Part shown: in pieces, positions 411 through 14,432 of the stretch
Numbering within the stretch: position 1 is the stretch's first letter
Layout of the letters: the number at the start of each line of letters is the position of its first letter
From: Candidatus Gastranaerophilales bacterium
GTDB taxonomy: Bacteria > Cyanobacteriota > Vampirovibrionia > Gastranaerophilales > Gastranaerophilaceae
Length of the DNA: 42,759 bases
Assembly (NCBI GenBank): GCA_944326425.1
Contig: CALVDX010000017.1
Location: 1-42,759 of the forward strand
Reading direction: 5' to 3'
Notes under the pieces: model-generated
The model's database searches: none
What the model was told of the DNA's origin: nothing
What the model saw: the letters and a program-made list of their open reading frames with translations, nothing else
Made by a program: the position numbers and the translations under genes

Positions 411-2066
411 TTATACAATGGCTCCGTGGCTTGCATCCTGTACAGAACGTGCATATTTAGCAAGATATCCGCTTGTGTGTTTTGGGGTAAACGGTTTTAA
501 TTTCTTGCGTCTCTCTTCAAGAATGTGTTCATCAACAAGAAGATCAAGTCTCCTCTTATTTATATCTATTTTAATTTTATCCCCTTCCTCAATAAGAGCA
601 ATAACTCCGCCATCTGCAGCCTCCGGGCATATATGACCGATACAAATTCCTCTTGTTCCTCCTGAAAATCTTCCGTCTGTAATCAATGCCGCACTTGTTC
701 CGAGCCCTTTGCCCACCAAAAGAGAAGTTGGTGCAAGCATCTCTCGCATACCGGGGCCGCCCTTAGGCCCTTCATATCTTATTACTATTACATCACCTGC
801 TTTAATTTCATCCTTTTCAAGTGCTTCCATTGCTGCTTCCTCGCTATCAAAGGGTTTTGCTGTTCCTTCAAACTCGTAACAGCTTTCGTCAATTCCTGAT
901 ATTTTTGTTACACACCCTCCTGAAGCAATATTCCCGTATAATATCCCGAGTCCCGGTTTTTGGGTTACCGGATTAGTTACATTATGAATTAATTCTGTAT
1001 CAACCCATGCATCTTTAATTAACTCTTCTATGCTTAAGCCGCTTACGCCTGTTGTATTTGTTAATTCCGGTATATTATTGTATAACGTTTTAAGGACAGC
1101 TGTAATTCCGCCGGCATTGTGTAAATCTGTCATTGTAGGAGCTGCTGACGGGTCAAGTTTTACTATTTGTTTGATTTTTCCGCTTAATTCTTCAAAGTCC
1201 TTTAGGGTAACGTCTATTCCTCCTGCATTTGCAATTGCAAGTATATGCAGGAATGAATTTGTTGAACCGCCCATTGCAAGGTCGCAGATGATAGCATTCC
1301 TGAGAGATGCTCTGGTTATAATATCAGATGGTTTAATATTGTTTTCTGCAAGATTTACGATTTGCAGCCCTGAATCAAAAGCAATTCTTCGTTTTAATGC
1401 AGAGACCGCCGCAGCAGTACCGCACTGCGGGAGGCTCATTCCTATCACTTCTGTTAAACATGCCATTGTATTGGCTGTATACAGTCCTTGACATGAACCG
1501 GCAGATGGACAAGAGTTTTCCTCCATTTCCAGTAGTTCATTTTCATTTATCATTCCTGCGCGGTATTTCCCGACAGCTTCAAACGAACCTTTTATCATGG
1601 TTAATTTCTGGTGTTTACATATTCCGTCGAGCATTGGACCAGCAGTTACTATTATTGCGGGTATATTTAATCTTGCGGCAGCAATCAGCATTCCCGGAGT
1701 GATTTTATCACAGTTAGAAAGCAAAACAAGTCCGTCAAGCTGGTGTGCTGCGGCTACTGTTTCAACGCAATCGGCAATTAAGTCTCTTGATGGCAGTGAA
1801 TACTGCATGCCGCTGTGCCCCATTGCTATGCCGTCGCATACTGCAGGAACTCCAAAGACAAAGGCCTGTCCGCCGCCTGAATGTATTCCCTTTTCAATCT
1901 GCCTTTCCAAATCACGCATGTTTATATGACCCGGGACTAAGTCAGAGAAAGAACTTGCAATACCGATAAAAGGTTTATTAATATTTTTTTTGCTTACACC
2001 TGCGGCATATAATAATCCTCTGTGCGGTGTTCTTGCCAATCCTTTTTTGATTTTATCGCTGTTCAT
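411..2066 (-). CDS. ilvD: Dihydroxy-acid dehydratase
   Basis: IlvD removes water from 2,3-dihydroxy-isovalerate or -methylvalerate to give the 2-keto acids, the third shared step of valine, isoleucine and leucine synthesis, using an Fe-S cluster and Mg2+. The 551-residue protein is full length. It shows the [10 protein letters not shown] signature (Cys119), the [17 protein letters not shown] signature (Cys186, Cys192) and the C-terminal [10 protein letters not shown] signature. The N-terminal position that is TPCN in some IlvDs is VPGH here, as in clostridial and archaeal members of the family. The ATG is preceded by AGAGGAAAA. The next upstream gene on the strand, nagA, is 187 bases away across a repeat-bearing spacer, so ilvD may have its own promoter. 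No other ilv gene is in the window. Confidence 0.96.
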
Positions 2067-2110
2067 TTTTCCTCTTTTCTGTTATATTGTTATGTTTTAC
2101 GGATTTGCTG

Positions 2111-2146
2111 TCCCCTCACCCCCAGCCCTCTCCAGACGGGAGAGGG
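2111..2146. repeat. Intergenic palindromic repeat, CCCTCACCC...GGGAGAGGG type
   Basis: The spacer between nagA and ilvD has a C-rich stretch ending in a perfect 8-base inverted repeat, CCCTCTCC (2126-2133) and GGAGAGGG (2139-2146), around a 5-base loop. Its base composition is unlike the AT-rich neighbourhood. Related C-rich motifs occur at 2203-2250, 32363-32420 and perhaps inside the gene near 42300, which suggests an interspersed family. Confidence 0.6.
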
Positions 2147-2202
2147 TACAGTTTTTAAGTTCGGTTAGACAGTTTTAAAAATCTTTGTTTTTTGTTTCCT
2201 AC

Positions 2203-3196: not shown

Positions 3197-4657
3197 TTAA
3201 TTAAAAATCTTTTTTACTTCTTCTCTGTCATCAAAGTGTATTGTTTTATCTTTTAAAATCTGATAGTCTTCATGCCCTTTTCCTGCAAGAACAACAATAT
3301 CATCCCTTTTGGCAAGTTTTTTTGCTGCTTTGATGGCAGATTCCCTGTCTGCTTCAACAATAACATTATCGGTAGATTTAAACCCTGATAAAATATCTGA
3401 CAGGATTTGCTGCGGATCTTCACTTCTCGGGTTGTCACTTGTTAAAATGACCTTGTCTGCAAGTTCTTCAGCTATTGCCCCCATCTGTGGTCTTTTAGTT
3501 ACGTCCCTATCCCCTCCGCAGCCAAAAACGCATATAAGTCTGCCTTTTGGAGATTTTATTCCTCTTGCTGAAATTAAAATATTTTTAAGTCCGTCCGGGG
3601 TATGTGCATAGTCAACTATAACCATTGGTTCCTGATGTACAATTTCAAACCTGCCGGCAACCCCTTTTAGCGGTTCAATTGATTTTATTGCTTTTTTTAC
3701 ATCTAATCCCATTGCATAAGCTGCAGTTATTGCTGCCAGTGTATTATATACACTGAATACTCCGTTCATTTTTAATTTAACTTTAATATTTTCTTTTGGG
3801 GTAATACAGGTATATGTAACTCCGTGGGCAGTATATTTGATATCTTTTGCCATAATGTCTGCAGAAGAATTTACTGCATAAGTATGAATTGCTACTGAGG
3901 ATGAAATCATGTTTTTGAGTCTTTGTCCGTATTCATCATCAATATTAATAACGGCAAAGTCTCCGGAGGCAAGATTTTCAAATAATTTTGCTTTTGCCAT
4001 AAAGTAATTATTCATTGTAATATGAAAATCTAAATGATCCTGTGTAAGGTTTGTAAATATTGCTCCGTTAAAGTCGCATCCTTTCACTCGGTGCTGGGCA
4101 ATCGCATGTGAACTGACTTCCATTACCACATTTGAGATTTGTTTGTTGTATTTGATTTCTGAAAATATTGACTGTAATTCCGGTGCCTGCGGTGTGGTAT
4201 GTCCCGTTGCATGGTAGTCATCATTTGAAGAAAATTTGTATCCGAGAGTTCCTATTAGTGCACAGCTGCCAAGCTGGTCCTCAATCATTTTTTGTAACAG
4301 GTGTGAAACGGTTGTTTTTCCGTTTGTACCCGTAACTCCGATTAGGTTTAACGAGGTAGAAGTGTTGCCGTTTAATATTATCGCTAAATCAGCAAGTATT
4401 TCCTGCGTAGAGTTTACAACAATTTGCGGAATATCAGAATTAAGAATTTTTTCTACAATACAAGCTACAGCCCCGTTATTTACTGCTTCCTGGAAAAATT
4501 CATGACCATCGGTGTGTTCGCCTGTTATGCATACAAATATATCATTCGGACGTGTAGTTTTAGAATTATAAGATACGTTTTCAACGTCTAAACTATAGTC
4601 ATTGACGTTAACTAATTCTTTATATTGGATTTGTTCTATCAGACTTCGTAATTTCAT
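3197..4657 (-). CDS. murE: UDP-MurNAc-dipeptide:meso-diaminopimelate ligase
   Basis: MurE adds the third stem-peptide residue to UDP-MurNAc-L-Ala-D-Glu in the cytoplasm, using ATP. The 486-residue protein has an N-terminal Mur ligase domain, the P-loop GVTGTNGKTT (about residues 107-116), the central ligase domain and a C-terminal domain with DNPR (408-411). DNPR is the marker of enzymes that bind meso-diaminopimelate rather than lysine, so peptidoglycan is predicted to be DAP-type. I chose the ATG at 4657 because GGAGGAA (4661-4667) lies just upstream of it; a longer frame from a TTG would place that site inside the gene. It lies 34 bases after ftsI and 25 before nagA, so the three are probably cotranscribed. 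Confidence 0.95.
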   Translation of the reverse strand: MKLRSLIEQIQYKELVNVNDYSLDVENVSYNSKTTRPNDIFVCITGEHTDGHEFFQEAVNNGAVACIVEKILNSDIPQIVVNSTQEILADLAIILNGNTSTSLNLIGVTGTNGKTTVSHLLQKMIEDQLGSCALIGTLGYKFSSNDDYHATGHTTPQAPELQSIFSEIKYNKQISNVVMEVSSHAIAQHRVKGCDFNGAIFTNLTQDHLDFHITMNNYFMAKAKLFENLASGDFAVINIDDEYGQRLKNMISSSVAIHTYAVNSSADIMAKDIKYTAHGVTYTCITPKENIKVKLKMNGVFSVYNTLAAITAAYAMGLDVKKAIKSIEPLKGVAGRFEIVHQEPMVIVDYAHTPDGLKNILISARGIKSPKGRLICVFGCGGDRDVTKRPQMGAIAEELADKVILTSDNPRSEDPQQILSDILSGFKSTDNVIVEADRESAIKAAKKLAKRDDIVVLAGKGHEDYQILKDKTIHFDDREEVKKIFN

Positions 4658-11703: not shown

Positions 11704-12009
11704 CTAAGTAGCTTTTTTAGCACCTGTTAGGCAATATGTTGCAAGTGCAGAAAACAATCCTACAATAATATAACCCGTTTTCTTTCCTTCGCTCATGTCA
11801 CCGGCTTTTATTACGGTTGTTTGATTTGCCGGAGCTTTTTCATAAACATCGTTTGCTGCGTTGTTTGTTGCCGGAATGAGTGTCATAAGCGGAACAATAG
11901 CTGCGTAAGCTAAGTTGAGCGGGCTTTTCATACCGTTTTTAGCGGGTTTTAACTTTAATCCTCCGGTGAAATTTGATTGATTGTTGTTAGTTATTGCAGA
12001 TACTTTCAT
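11704..12009 (-). CDS. Small membrane protein, MKV-AI family (hypothetical)
   Basis: I do not recognise this 101-residue protein. It begins MKVSAITNNNQSNFTGG, a polar Asn-rich leader ending in NFTGG, then has a hydrophobic segment (about 33-52, LNLAYAAIVPLMTLIPA), a polar middle, and a second hydrophobic segment (about 79-95). It is a paralogue of the gene upstream: both start MK(V/I)-x-AI, both have NLAY(A/S)AI opening the first membrane segment and a second one near the C-terminus. The gap between them is 18 bases and each has a ribosome binding site (AAAGG here), so they form an operon. A membrane role is inferred from hydropathy only. Confidence 0.75.
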   Translation of the reverse strand: MKVSAITNNNQSNFTGGLKLKPAKNGMKSPLNLAYAAIVPLMTLIPATNNAANDVYEKAPANQTTVIKAGDMSEGKKTGYIIVGLFSALATYCLTGAKKAT

Positions 12010-12027
12010 GATTTTTTAACCTTTCTT

Positions 12028-12405
12028 TTAACCTTCTTTAATAGCATTAGTAACAGTTCTTGCAGCACCTCCTATAAAAGCACCTGCAAAAATTGCGATT
12101 AGATAATCCTTAAAGGTCATTTCATCTGCTTTTTTTTCAGGATGATATTCATTTTGGATTCGTTCAGCGTTTTCCCTTGTTCTTCTTTGTAATTCTTCCA
12201 GCAGATCACTGTCATATCCGGCTTTTTGGCTAAGTTCTGTTTTTGGTGTTTGTTTTTCTTTGTTTGACGGAATGAAAGCATCCGCTGCTGTTAATAGCGA
12301 AGTTGCAAAAATAGCAGAATATGCTAAATTAGCGAACTTTCCCGGCTTTACTACGTTTCCTTTTGAATTAACAGGATTAGCCGCATTAATTGCTTGTATT
12401 TTCAT
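12028..12405 (-). CDS. Small membrane protein, MKI-AI family (hypothetical)
   Basis: This 125-residue protein starts MKIQAINAANPVNSKG and carries a hydrophobic segment at about 27-44 (ANLAYSAIFATSLLTAADAF), a charged central helix rich in Glu, Arg and Lys (about 60-100), and a C-terminal hydrophobic segment (about 103-120, with small residues GAFIGGAA). GAGGG lies 7 bases before the ATG, and a well-formed promoter lies at 12455-12483. It shares its N-terminal plan with the next gene downstream. The function is unknown. Confidence 0.75.
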   Translation of the reverse strand: MKIQAINAANPVNSKGNVVKPGKFANLAYSAIFATSLLTAADAFIPSNKEKQTPKTELSQKAGYDSDLLEELQRRTRENAERIQNEYHPEKKADEMTFKDYLIAIFAGAFIGGAARTVTNAIKEG

Positions 12406-12454
12406 AATTTTAACCCTCGAATATTTGAACCATTTATACTTATAATTCTATATA

Positions 12455-12483
12455 ATTATATATATAGTTCAAGGCTTTGTAAA
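12455..12483 (-). promoter_or_regulatory. Promoter of the small membrane protein pair
   Basis: On the minus strand TTTACA (12483-12478) and TATAAT (12460-12455) are spaced by exactly 17 bases, about 50 bases before the first start codon. Confidence 0.7.
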
Positions 12484-12668
12484 GATATATTGCAAAGAAA
12501 TAGAGAAAATAGAGGATATTATGTCACAGTTACTGTTAAGAGTTGTTATAAAAACTGATACGAATAATTAATATATGACGGGTAATATTGTTTGAAATGT
12601 ATTTTTAGAACATATAATTGTAACGAAACCTTAACAAATTTTTCAATGTAACAAAATGTAAAGATGAA

Positions 12669-12697
12669 TTTACATGGGTCTGAAACCTTGATATAAT
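12669..12697 (+). promoter_or_regulatory. Promoter immediately before the ATATG repeat
   Basis: TTTACA (12669-12674) and a perfect TATAAT (12692-12697) are separated by 17 bases. The expected start of transcription, about 12704, is the first unit of the pentanucleotide tract. Confidence 0.75.
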
Positions 12698-12702
12698 CCC
12701 TT

Positions 12703-12769
12703 ATATGATATGATATGATATGATATGATATGATATGATATGATATGATATGATATGATATGATATGAT
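12703..12769 (+). repeat. Pentanucleotide tandem repeat (ATATG)13.4
   Basis: The unit ATATG repeats without a mismatch for 67 bases, then passes into GGATG-like units (to about 12785). It is not coding: every frame meets TGA within 15 bases. It starts about 6 bases after a consensus -10 box and ends about 95 bases before the start codon of the downstream gene. Confidence 0.95.
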
Positions 12770-12863
12770 GGGATGGGATGGGGCGGTCTAAAGTTTTGAA
12801 AGAAGATGTCGTTATACATACAGTACGTACAGTGTGACTTATTAAAAAAGAAAGGTAAAAGTT

Positions 12864-13832
12864 ATGACGACAAAATTAAATCAAATTTTTGCTAATCTTA
12901 AGGCTGCAATAATGGATGTAAAGAAAACAGAAGGAGATGCAAATAAAATTGACAGCCTTAAAGAGGTTAGCAAAATAGGAGAACTTTTGGCTAATGCAGA
13001 GATTGAGATAGGCGATGTATTAGAAAAAGAACAAACAAATTTAAGAAAACAAGCAGACAGTTTATCGCATTCTCAATATACAAATAAGGAAAGCGAGCTG
13101 CGTGAAATGCAGCAAACAGCGTATTCTAAAATTGAAGAGGTACGGTTTGCTCTCGATTCCGAAAAAGAAACATTGGCGGCTGCTTTGCCCAAGTATCAGT
13201 ATTATGATGATGCAGACGGACAGGTTAAAAATATAAAAAACCTGCATAGTGTGCGTCCTGACGGCGGATATGAGGTTAGGGGCACAAATAATGCAGATGG
13301 CTCATATACAACTAAAGTGTATAATGCTAAGGGACAGGAATACGGTATGAAGTTGTATAATAAAGATGGAGAGCCTACTGATATGAAAAAAGCTGCCGAA
13401 TATTTTGGGTTGAAGTCCGATGGCTTTTTTAATCGTTTGGGAGCGATATTATTTGATATTATACCGATGACTGATCACGATTCAGCCAGTATTTTAGCAG
13501 AATTGGGTGAAAATGAATATGTTCGCAATCGGGATGTTTATCGTTGGAATGCAGAGTCTGCTCAATTTGATAAAGTGCGTAGCTATCCTTCAAGGCATGA
13601 TTGGGGATATTGGGAGGTAAATATGGATATAGATATAGGTCCGGACGAAAACCCTTTTACCCTTGATGAAGCGGTAGACAATTTAACCGGTGCTAAATCT
13701 TTGGAACAAATAGCTGATGATAAAAGACAAGCTGAACTTGATAGGCAACGGGCTGAACATGAGGCATGGCTGGCTCAATATAGGAAAGAACAAGAAGAGT
13801 TAAATAAAAAGAATGCAGAAAATTCGCCTTAA
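12864..13832 (+). CDS. Coiled-coil protein of unknown function
   Basis: I do not recognise this 322-residue protein. It has no signal peptide or clear membrane segment. Residues about 1-110 are helical and heptad-like, rich in Glu, Lys and Ala. Residues about 115-165 hold short strand-turn units with Gly/Asp/Asn (EVRGTNNADGSYTTKVYN, then AKGQEYGMKLYNKDGEP), reminiscent of MORN/YwqK-like turns. A middle region has several Trp and Tyr, and a charged C-terminal helix (about 280-322) is rich in Glu, Gln and Arg. The start follows AAAGAAAGGTAAAAG. It stands alone between a repeat-bearing promoter region and its own terminator, so it is a single-gene transcript. Expression could vary with repeat length (inference). 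Confidence 0.8.
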   Translation: MTTKLNQIFANLKAAIMDVKKTEGDANKIDSLKEVSKIGELLANAEIEIGDVLEKEQTNLRKQADSLSHSQYTNKESELREMQQTAYSKIEEVRFALDSEKETLAAALPKYQYYDDADGQVKNIKNLHSVRPDGGYEVRGTNNADGSYTTKVYNAKGQEYGMKLYNKDGEPTDMKKAAEYFGLKSDGFFNRLGAILFDIIPMTDHDSASILAELGENEYVRNRDVYRWNAESAQFDKVRSYPSRHDWGYWEVNMDIDIGPDENPFTLDEAVDNLTGAKSLEQIADDKRQAELDRQRAEHEAWLAQYRKEQEELNKKNAENSP

Positions 13833-13864
13833 ACTACTCTAACCGGAAGCAATCTGAGAAAATT

Positions 13865-13900
13865 ACAAGACTTGTCAAAACATGCAAGTCTTGTTTTATT
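13865..13900 (+). terminator. Terminator after the coiled-coil gene
   Basis: ACAAGACTTG (13865-13874) pairs perfectly with CAAGTCTTGT (13885-13894) across a 10-base loop and is followed by TTTATT. It separates this gene from the ribosomal cluster. Confidence 0.8.
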
Positions 13901-13971
13901 GAAAAAAGTTTTTTGAAACGGATGTTTTTTAAAGAAATATTACAAATTATAAAACAAGTTAAAATGTACAG

Positions 13972-14000
13972 TTGACATGGTTTTTTGTTTATATTACGAT
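13972..14000 (+). promoter_or_regulatory. Promoter of the ribosomal protein cluster
   Basis: A perfect TTGACA (13972-13977) is followed after 17 bases by TACGAT. The predicted leader of about 100 bases before rpsJ contains GTTCGGGTGAAAGCCCTGA, which can form a small hairpin. Confidence 0.65.
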
Positions 14001-14108
14001 ACCTAGTGCTATAGTATTAAACCGAAATATAATATTTTTATAGCAGTCTGGTTCGGGTGAAAGCCCTGATTAGATTAGTGTTACAAAGTCAGTGAAAAGG
14101 ATTAAAAA

Positions 14109-14432
14109 ATGGCAAGTCAAGAACAAGGACAAAAAATCAGAGTTTGCTTACGTTCTTACGAACATAAATTAGTAGATATTTCTGCTGAAAAAATCGTAGA
14201 AGCAGCAAAGAGAACAGATGCAAAAGTTGCCGGTCCGATTCCTTTACCGACAAAACGTCGTATATATTGTGTATTACGTTCACCGCACGTTGATAAGAAA
14301 TCAAGAGAACATTTCGAAATCAGAACGCACAAACGTATTATCGATATTTACGATTCAACACAGCAAACAATGGCTGAGTTGAGCAAGATGGATTTACCGG
14401 CAGGCGTCGGCGTAGAAATGAAAGTTTTATAA
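14109..14432 (+). CDS. rpsJ: 30S ribosomal protein S10
   Basis: S10 binds the 3' domain of 16S rRNA in the head of the small subunit and also acts in transcription antitermination with NusB. The 107-residue protein has the family core, including [22 protein letters not shown] and the [11 protein letters not shown] close. It opens the S10-type cluster. No fusA or tuf gene lies upstream, so here S10 is separate from the str genes. RBS AAAAGGATT. Confidence 0.97.

Follow-up and report, generated by a model that had tools for sequence, protein, structure and literature searches.

A pentamer array as a candidate element of a composite promoter in Gastranaerophilaceae

The ATATG array ahead of a gene of no assigned function in a Candidatus Gastranaerophilales bacterium belongs to a promoter cassette that recurs across the family. 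The cassette comprises a GTAA-N6-GTAA box, a sigma70-like promoter (P1), the pentamer array, a few pentamers rich in G and a further promoter (P2), and in the sequences the order and register of these parts are constant among sites. Its place and phase are kept across the cassettes of the family, so that the array is a conserved component of a module with two promoters in tandem. We tentatively favour the reading that it would be a built-in element, with a spacer-type role, of a composite promoter common to a regulon of mostly function-unassigned proteins. A literature search found no paper on this pentamer-array promoter family.

The repeat, its promoters and its gene

Within the window, i.e. 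the whole stretch of 42,759 nucleotides analysed here, TRF places a tract of period 5 at 12703-12769 (+), with 13.4 copies of ATATG at 100% matches, a count that rests on the assembled sequence, where assembly could mis-state the unit number. Its score of 134 far exceeds that of every other array in the window, and dinucleotide shuffling gave such a tract in 0/100 cases. The 13.4 perfect units described in the initial annotation are thus confirmed. Upstream lies P1 (12669-12697, +), which is conserved in the cassette alignment and consists of TTTACA (12669-12674), N17 and TATAAT (12692-12697). It matches the consensus at 11/12 positions and has an extended TG (12689-12690), so the near-consensus promoter proposed earlier is upheld. 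Between its -10 element and the first unit stand 5 nt (CCCTT), not the 6 bases first given. The array begins at the expected P1 start site, as it does in other cassettes, and this position agrees with the earlier suggestion that the repeat forms the first bases of the leader. However, the predicted P2 sits after the array, and transcripts from it would omit the repeat.

The array is followed by a G-rich tail (12770-12788, +) that is partly in a 5-base period (GGGATGGGATGGGGCGGTC), and across all sites the period-5 signal persists weakly beyond the array. P2 (12789-12815, +), with a start expected near 12822, has the form TAAA-N15-GTCGTTAT and is sigma28-like by motif and spacing. It lies between array and gene and had been overlooked, as had the other cassette copies in the genome. 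The upstream box, TGTAA-N5-TGTAA (that is, GTAA-N6-GTAA; 12647-12662, +), is a probable activator site given its fixed spacing. P1, P2 and their start sites are predicted by motif.

A ribosome-binding site, GAAAGG (12850-12855, +), precedes the 322-residue reading frame that had been reported downstream of the repeat and is indeed found at 12864-13832 (+), and a terminator-like hairpin with a T tail follows at 13865-13894 (+). The protein has no assigned function and no apparent signal peptide; a low-confidence predicted structure, with pLDDT 68 and pTM 0.38, places long helices at either terminus and beta structure mid-chain. A Pfam search of this protein returned no convincing match and a peptide-pattern search of the genome contigs found no relatives. 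A whole-genome search gave one 57% ortholog, one fragment and one distant relative.

In the window, a small divergent gene on one side and rpsJ on the other bound the interval that holds the cassette. We compared this interval before rpsJ (window 12028-14109; L023, L024 and L025) and found that G002 lacks both cassette and gene, that in G004 a different gene accompanies the cassette, and that G006, like the window, has the cassette with the window-type gene. On this sequence comparison the gene has been exchanged at this interval while the promoter cassette was kept. Small divergent genes with similar N-termini (MKIQAIN.., MKIQNIS..) adjoin the cassette at 11704-12405 (-) of the window and at 1054-2155 (-) of L023, and there are two to four such genes per genome. 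Pfam searches of the two that lie in the window gave no match.

A cassette shared by many genes

The genome that contains the window spans 2.0 Mb in 40 contigs, and every locus where exact ATATG units number three or more (8/8) lies in a cassette. R1, a sequence-only cassette model built from cassette copies, gives 13 matches in this genome at E<1e-4, counting the one in the window. Moreover, it matches 33/59 genomes of relatives at E<=0.01 and, across the class, 146/382 genomes at E<=1e-4, every one of the latter in the window's family. ATAGG arrays were found inside cassettes in G028 (8/8) and in G033 (11/12, the twelfth being cut by the contig start). A GTDB scan that named only the letters of P1 yielded 54 new sites, nearly all of which carry a pentamer array straight after the -10 element. 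Almost every named record that shows the P1 pattern is an assembly of Candidatus Gastranaerophilales or Melainabacteria, and we infer that the few labelled otherwise (Fusobacterium sp. CAG:439, a Muribaculaceae bin) are mislabelled bins. Cassette copies are probably undercounted, since contigs of several assemblies end within the cassette or the array. Such ends occur in G006 (end of C12; C59:12-104), G001 (end of C27; C29:1-79), G028 (C11:1-63) and G033 (C72:3). Phage origin was also checked, with no match in phage records. In the viral collection IMG/VR, one contig (L313, 9930-10090) has a complete cassette whose ATATG array precedes a gene; it may be of bacterial origin or come from a virus that uses the promoter.

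P2 falls into two classes, TAAA-N15-GCCGTTAT, which is sigma28-like, and CAAT-N15/16-GTTTTTAT; in the P2 of the window, GTCGTTAT is one base from GCCGTTAT. The spacing from TAAA to GCCG(T/A) is 15 in 29 cases and 16 in 8, against 0-2 for any of the remaining spacings between 8 and 23, and TAAA-N15-GCCG(T/A) has 45 matches in the genome versus 11 for the reversed pattern. CAAT-N15-GTTTTTAT has 22 matches at spacing 15 versus 0.8 in shuffles. The FliA (sigma28) promoter consensus is TAAA-N15-GCCGATAA. P2 of the first class resembles it in consensus elements and fixed spacing, and the genome encodes a FliA-family sigma factor (TIGR02479 over cut-off); sigma28 dependence of P2 is a prediction from motif. 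Unlike a FliA promoter, P2 is in a subset preceded by another promoter and a pentamer array, and genomes in which no flagellin was found carry the cassette as well. The box begins 44 bp ahead of the P1 -10 element in 83/129 sites and 32 bp ahead of TAAAG in 9 of the genome's 10 stand-alone sigma28-like promoters that have a box, from which we infer that one activator may serve both promoter types.

The genes downstream of cassettes encode mostly proteins of no assigned function without signal peptides, and a hydrophobic stretch near the N terminus is present in 4/111 first ORFs after cassettes. Pfam searches of ten such proteins gave LysM, EF-hand-like or DUF2963/RHS-like matches, or nothing. 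The genome has an FlhA/FlhB/FliP/FliQ/FliR operon, with which our guess that these proteins are exported through a flagellar-type apparatus is consistent. Flagellin was not found in ten cassette-bearing genomes (G007, G009, G013, G015, G019, G020, G023, G026, G028 and G033), all ten of which have FlhA-like proteins. Nearly every genome also contains a frame about 500 aa long whose match to FlhA/SctV is confined to the C-terminal half (PF00771 from about position 321); G000:C1:111507-112520 and its relatives are such frames, and one or two full-length copies exist besides.

Word, length and phase of the arrays

A perfect array of at least 12 nt is present in 107/125 complete sites, counts that are not independent because cassette sites are related by descent, and most of the other sites hold an array with one mismatch. 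The array lies at the -10 end of an interval that measures a median of 120 nt from -10 element to start codon. Its modal length is 22 nt (47 of the 125 sites), as is its median, and because the length is most often 22 nt the arrays look conserved and not freely variable. The unit word changes by lineage (ATATG, ATAGG, GTATG, ATAGC, TATGC, ATAGA, GTAAG) while the place and phase of the array stay constant. A TA step is present in 7/7 unit types at a fixed phase to the -10 element, with the first TA at index 12 or 11 from the -10 start in nearly all sites. Rotated to TA, the units of 144 arrays are TATGA (65), TAGGA (48), TATGG (14), TAGCA (8), TATGC (7), TAGAA (1) and TAAGG (1). Unit likeness within one genome is 0.60 versus 0.32 in shuffles (maximum 0.46). 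Two to four different units are nevertheless found in single genomes (G020, G026 and G033), and orthologous genes of different genera can carry different units.

The window array is the second longest among about 144. The sole longer one, GTATG for 78 nt, belongs to another genus (L181, near locus position 4048, +; CALVAX010000002.1), and other expanded arrays measure 46 nt (G030) and 45 nt (L187). In a unit-number comparison that covers orthologs of different species, L018 (G000) and L084 (G006) have near-identical leaders with arrays of 27 versus 22 nt, one ATATG unit apart; further orthologous promoter pairs have 18 versus 22 nt and 32 versus 12 nt. The window gene has an array of 67 nt, its same-genus ortholog in G006 a short, interrupted one, and a third ortholog, in G368, one of 17 nt (leader also read in L171). 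These lengths bear out the recent expansion suggested earlier; judged against its orthologs, the window allele is an expansion, with a P1-P2 distance of 92 bp. This distance, from the P1 -10 to the P2 -35 element, is 42 bp in 45/84 sites and 2 mod 5 in 70/84. A helical-face preference was rejected, as it was supported only through the 42-bp mode and was gone once that mode was set aside.

An Rfam search gave no family over the gathering score. When RNA folding was compared with shuffles, two ATATG leaders were more stable (z -3.1 and -3.6), whereas a third ATATG leader showed no such gain, nor did the ATAGG and ATAGC leaders. A common leader hairpin was therefore rejected, the gain being confined to two ATATG leaders. 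We also rejected a reading-frame switch, because the 5-base unit puts TGA in every frame through the ATATG array, and complementarity between discriminator and unit, for which there was no consistent pairing.

Possible roles of the array

The most likely role, as far as sequence can tell, would be twofold, to supply the first bases transcribed and to act as a spacer whose length shifts by 5 bp at a time. One activator would bind the upstream box and P1 transcription would start within the first array units. The array would form the first P1-transcribed bases and a spacer with steps of 5 bp, about half a helical turn, and its length would set the polymerase spacing of P1 relative to P2, normally 42 bp, and hence the balance of the two promoters. 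Slippage would keep arrays perfect and let single loci drift in length, as in the window with 13 units and 92 bp, and drifted lengths would probably lead to other expression levels. Slippage tuning of the window gene is plausible as a secondary effect.

A spacer role alone is insufficient, because a plain spacer needs neither a perfect repeat nor a fixed-phase TA step, and since a mere spacer leaves the perfect repeats unexplained, binding sites or a ladder of -10-like elements stay as rivals. On the former reading the array would be a row of sites for a DNA- or RNA-binding protein, e.g. a repressor, or a regulator that binds the P1 leader as RNA. The fixed place and phase fit this, as does the greater than expected likeness of units within a genome, as if they were matched to a factor; however, shared descent accounts for that likeness too. 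Moreover, units differ within genomes and between orthologs, which makes strict recognition of the unit unlikely, and we consider such a row of sites improbable. We give still less weight to the ladder, in which -10-like hexamers would hold sigma so that polymerase pauses or restarts in the first P1-transcribed bases. TANNNT does recur every 5 bp (TATGAT, TAGGAT, TATGGT, TAGCAT, TATGCT), TA keeps its phase in all seven unit types, and a promoter scan of the window reports eight TATGAT elements with an upstream TG inside the array, but TANNNT arises from any TA-containing pentamer and is a weak signal.

The initial annotation had read the array as a phase-variation switch by slipped-strand mispairing, for which hmw1A/hmw2A offer a parallel; as a private switch, its unit count would switch or tune the window gene alone. 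The 13.4 perfect units, the differing unit numbers of orthologous loci and the few other expanded arrays speak for such a contingency locus. Most arrays, however, hold about 4.4 units across genera, which points to a fixed role, and the gene would still be served by P2, beyond the array. Within the family-wide cassette the array is a fixed part, mostly 22 nt long, so that the private switch is not supported in the form first stated; as an account of the array it appears unlikely, to much the same degree as the row of binding sites, although a phase switch is possible for the long window allele. Neutral microsatellite expansion without function is highly improbable: slippage alone can make perfect repeats, but near-exclusive location, fixed phase and a length conserved across many genera stand against it.

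Known repeat systems each share part of this pattern. The hmw1A/hmw2A promoters of Haemophilus influenzae carry 9-28 copies of a 7-bp tandem repeat, and more repeats give less transcript (PMC2424069). The window likewise has a short perfect tandem repeat in the promoter region. In contrast, hmw1A and hmw2A are two genes of one species, whereas the cassette precedes many unrelated genes in many species, mostly with about four units, a word that changes by lineage and a fixed two-promoter spacing. In uspA2 of Moraxella catarrhalis, as cited in PMC4679880, the 5' untranslated region holds AGAT repeats on whose copy number expression depends; as described there, the repeat also lies between promoter and start codon, but it concerns a single gene and is not known to belong to any promoter module shared among genes. 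Direct repeats of TAACTGA are found in Beggiatoaceae, some Cyanobacteria and Bacteroidetes, and in the BOGUAY genome lie mostly just upstream of start codons (PMC4679880). They resemble the arrays as short direct repeats ahead of many genes in one genome. They are, however, one constant heptamer near the start codon, whereas the cassette has pentamers of seven unit types, fixed to a -10 element a median of 120 nt before it.

Taken together, and with somewhat less assurance than for the composite promoter itself, we propose an undescribed architecture in which a homogenised start-site pentamer array would be kept for its period and not its sequence, and would space two promoters in 5-bp steps in a lineage-wide regulon of probably exported proteins. 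Promoter repeats are usually read as single-gene switches; here the repeat is a standing part of the promoter of many genes. In this family of gut bacteria, which are cyanobacterial relatives and for the most part uncultured, the word changes by lineage while period, place and usual length are kept, which raises the question of whether a promoter needs repetitiveness itself, and why. Moreover, the pattern of box, P1, array and P2 offers a sequence handle with which to list a regulon of unannotated, probably exported proteins.
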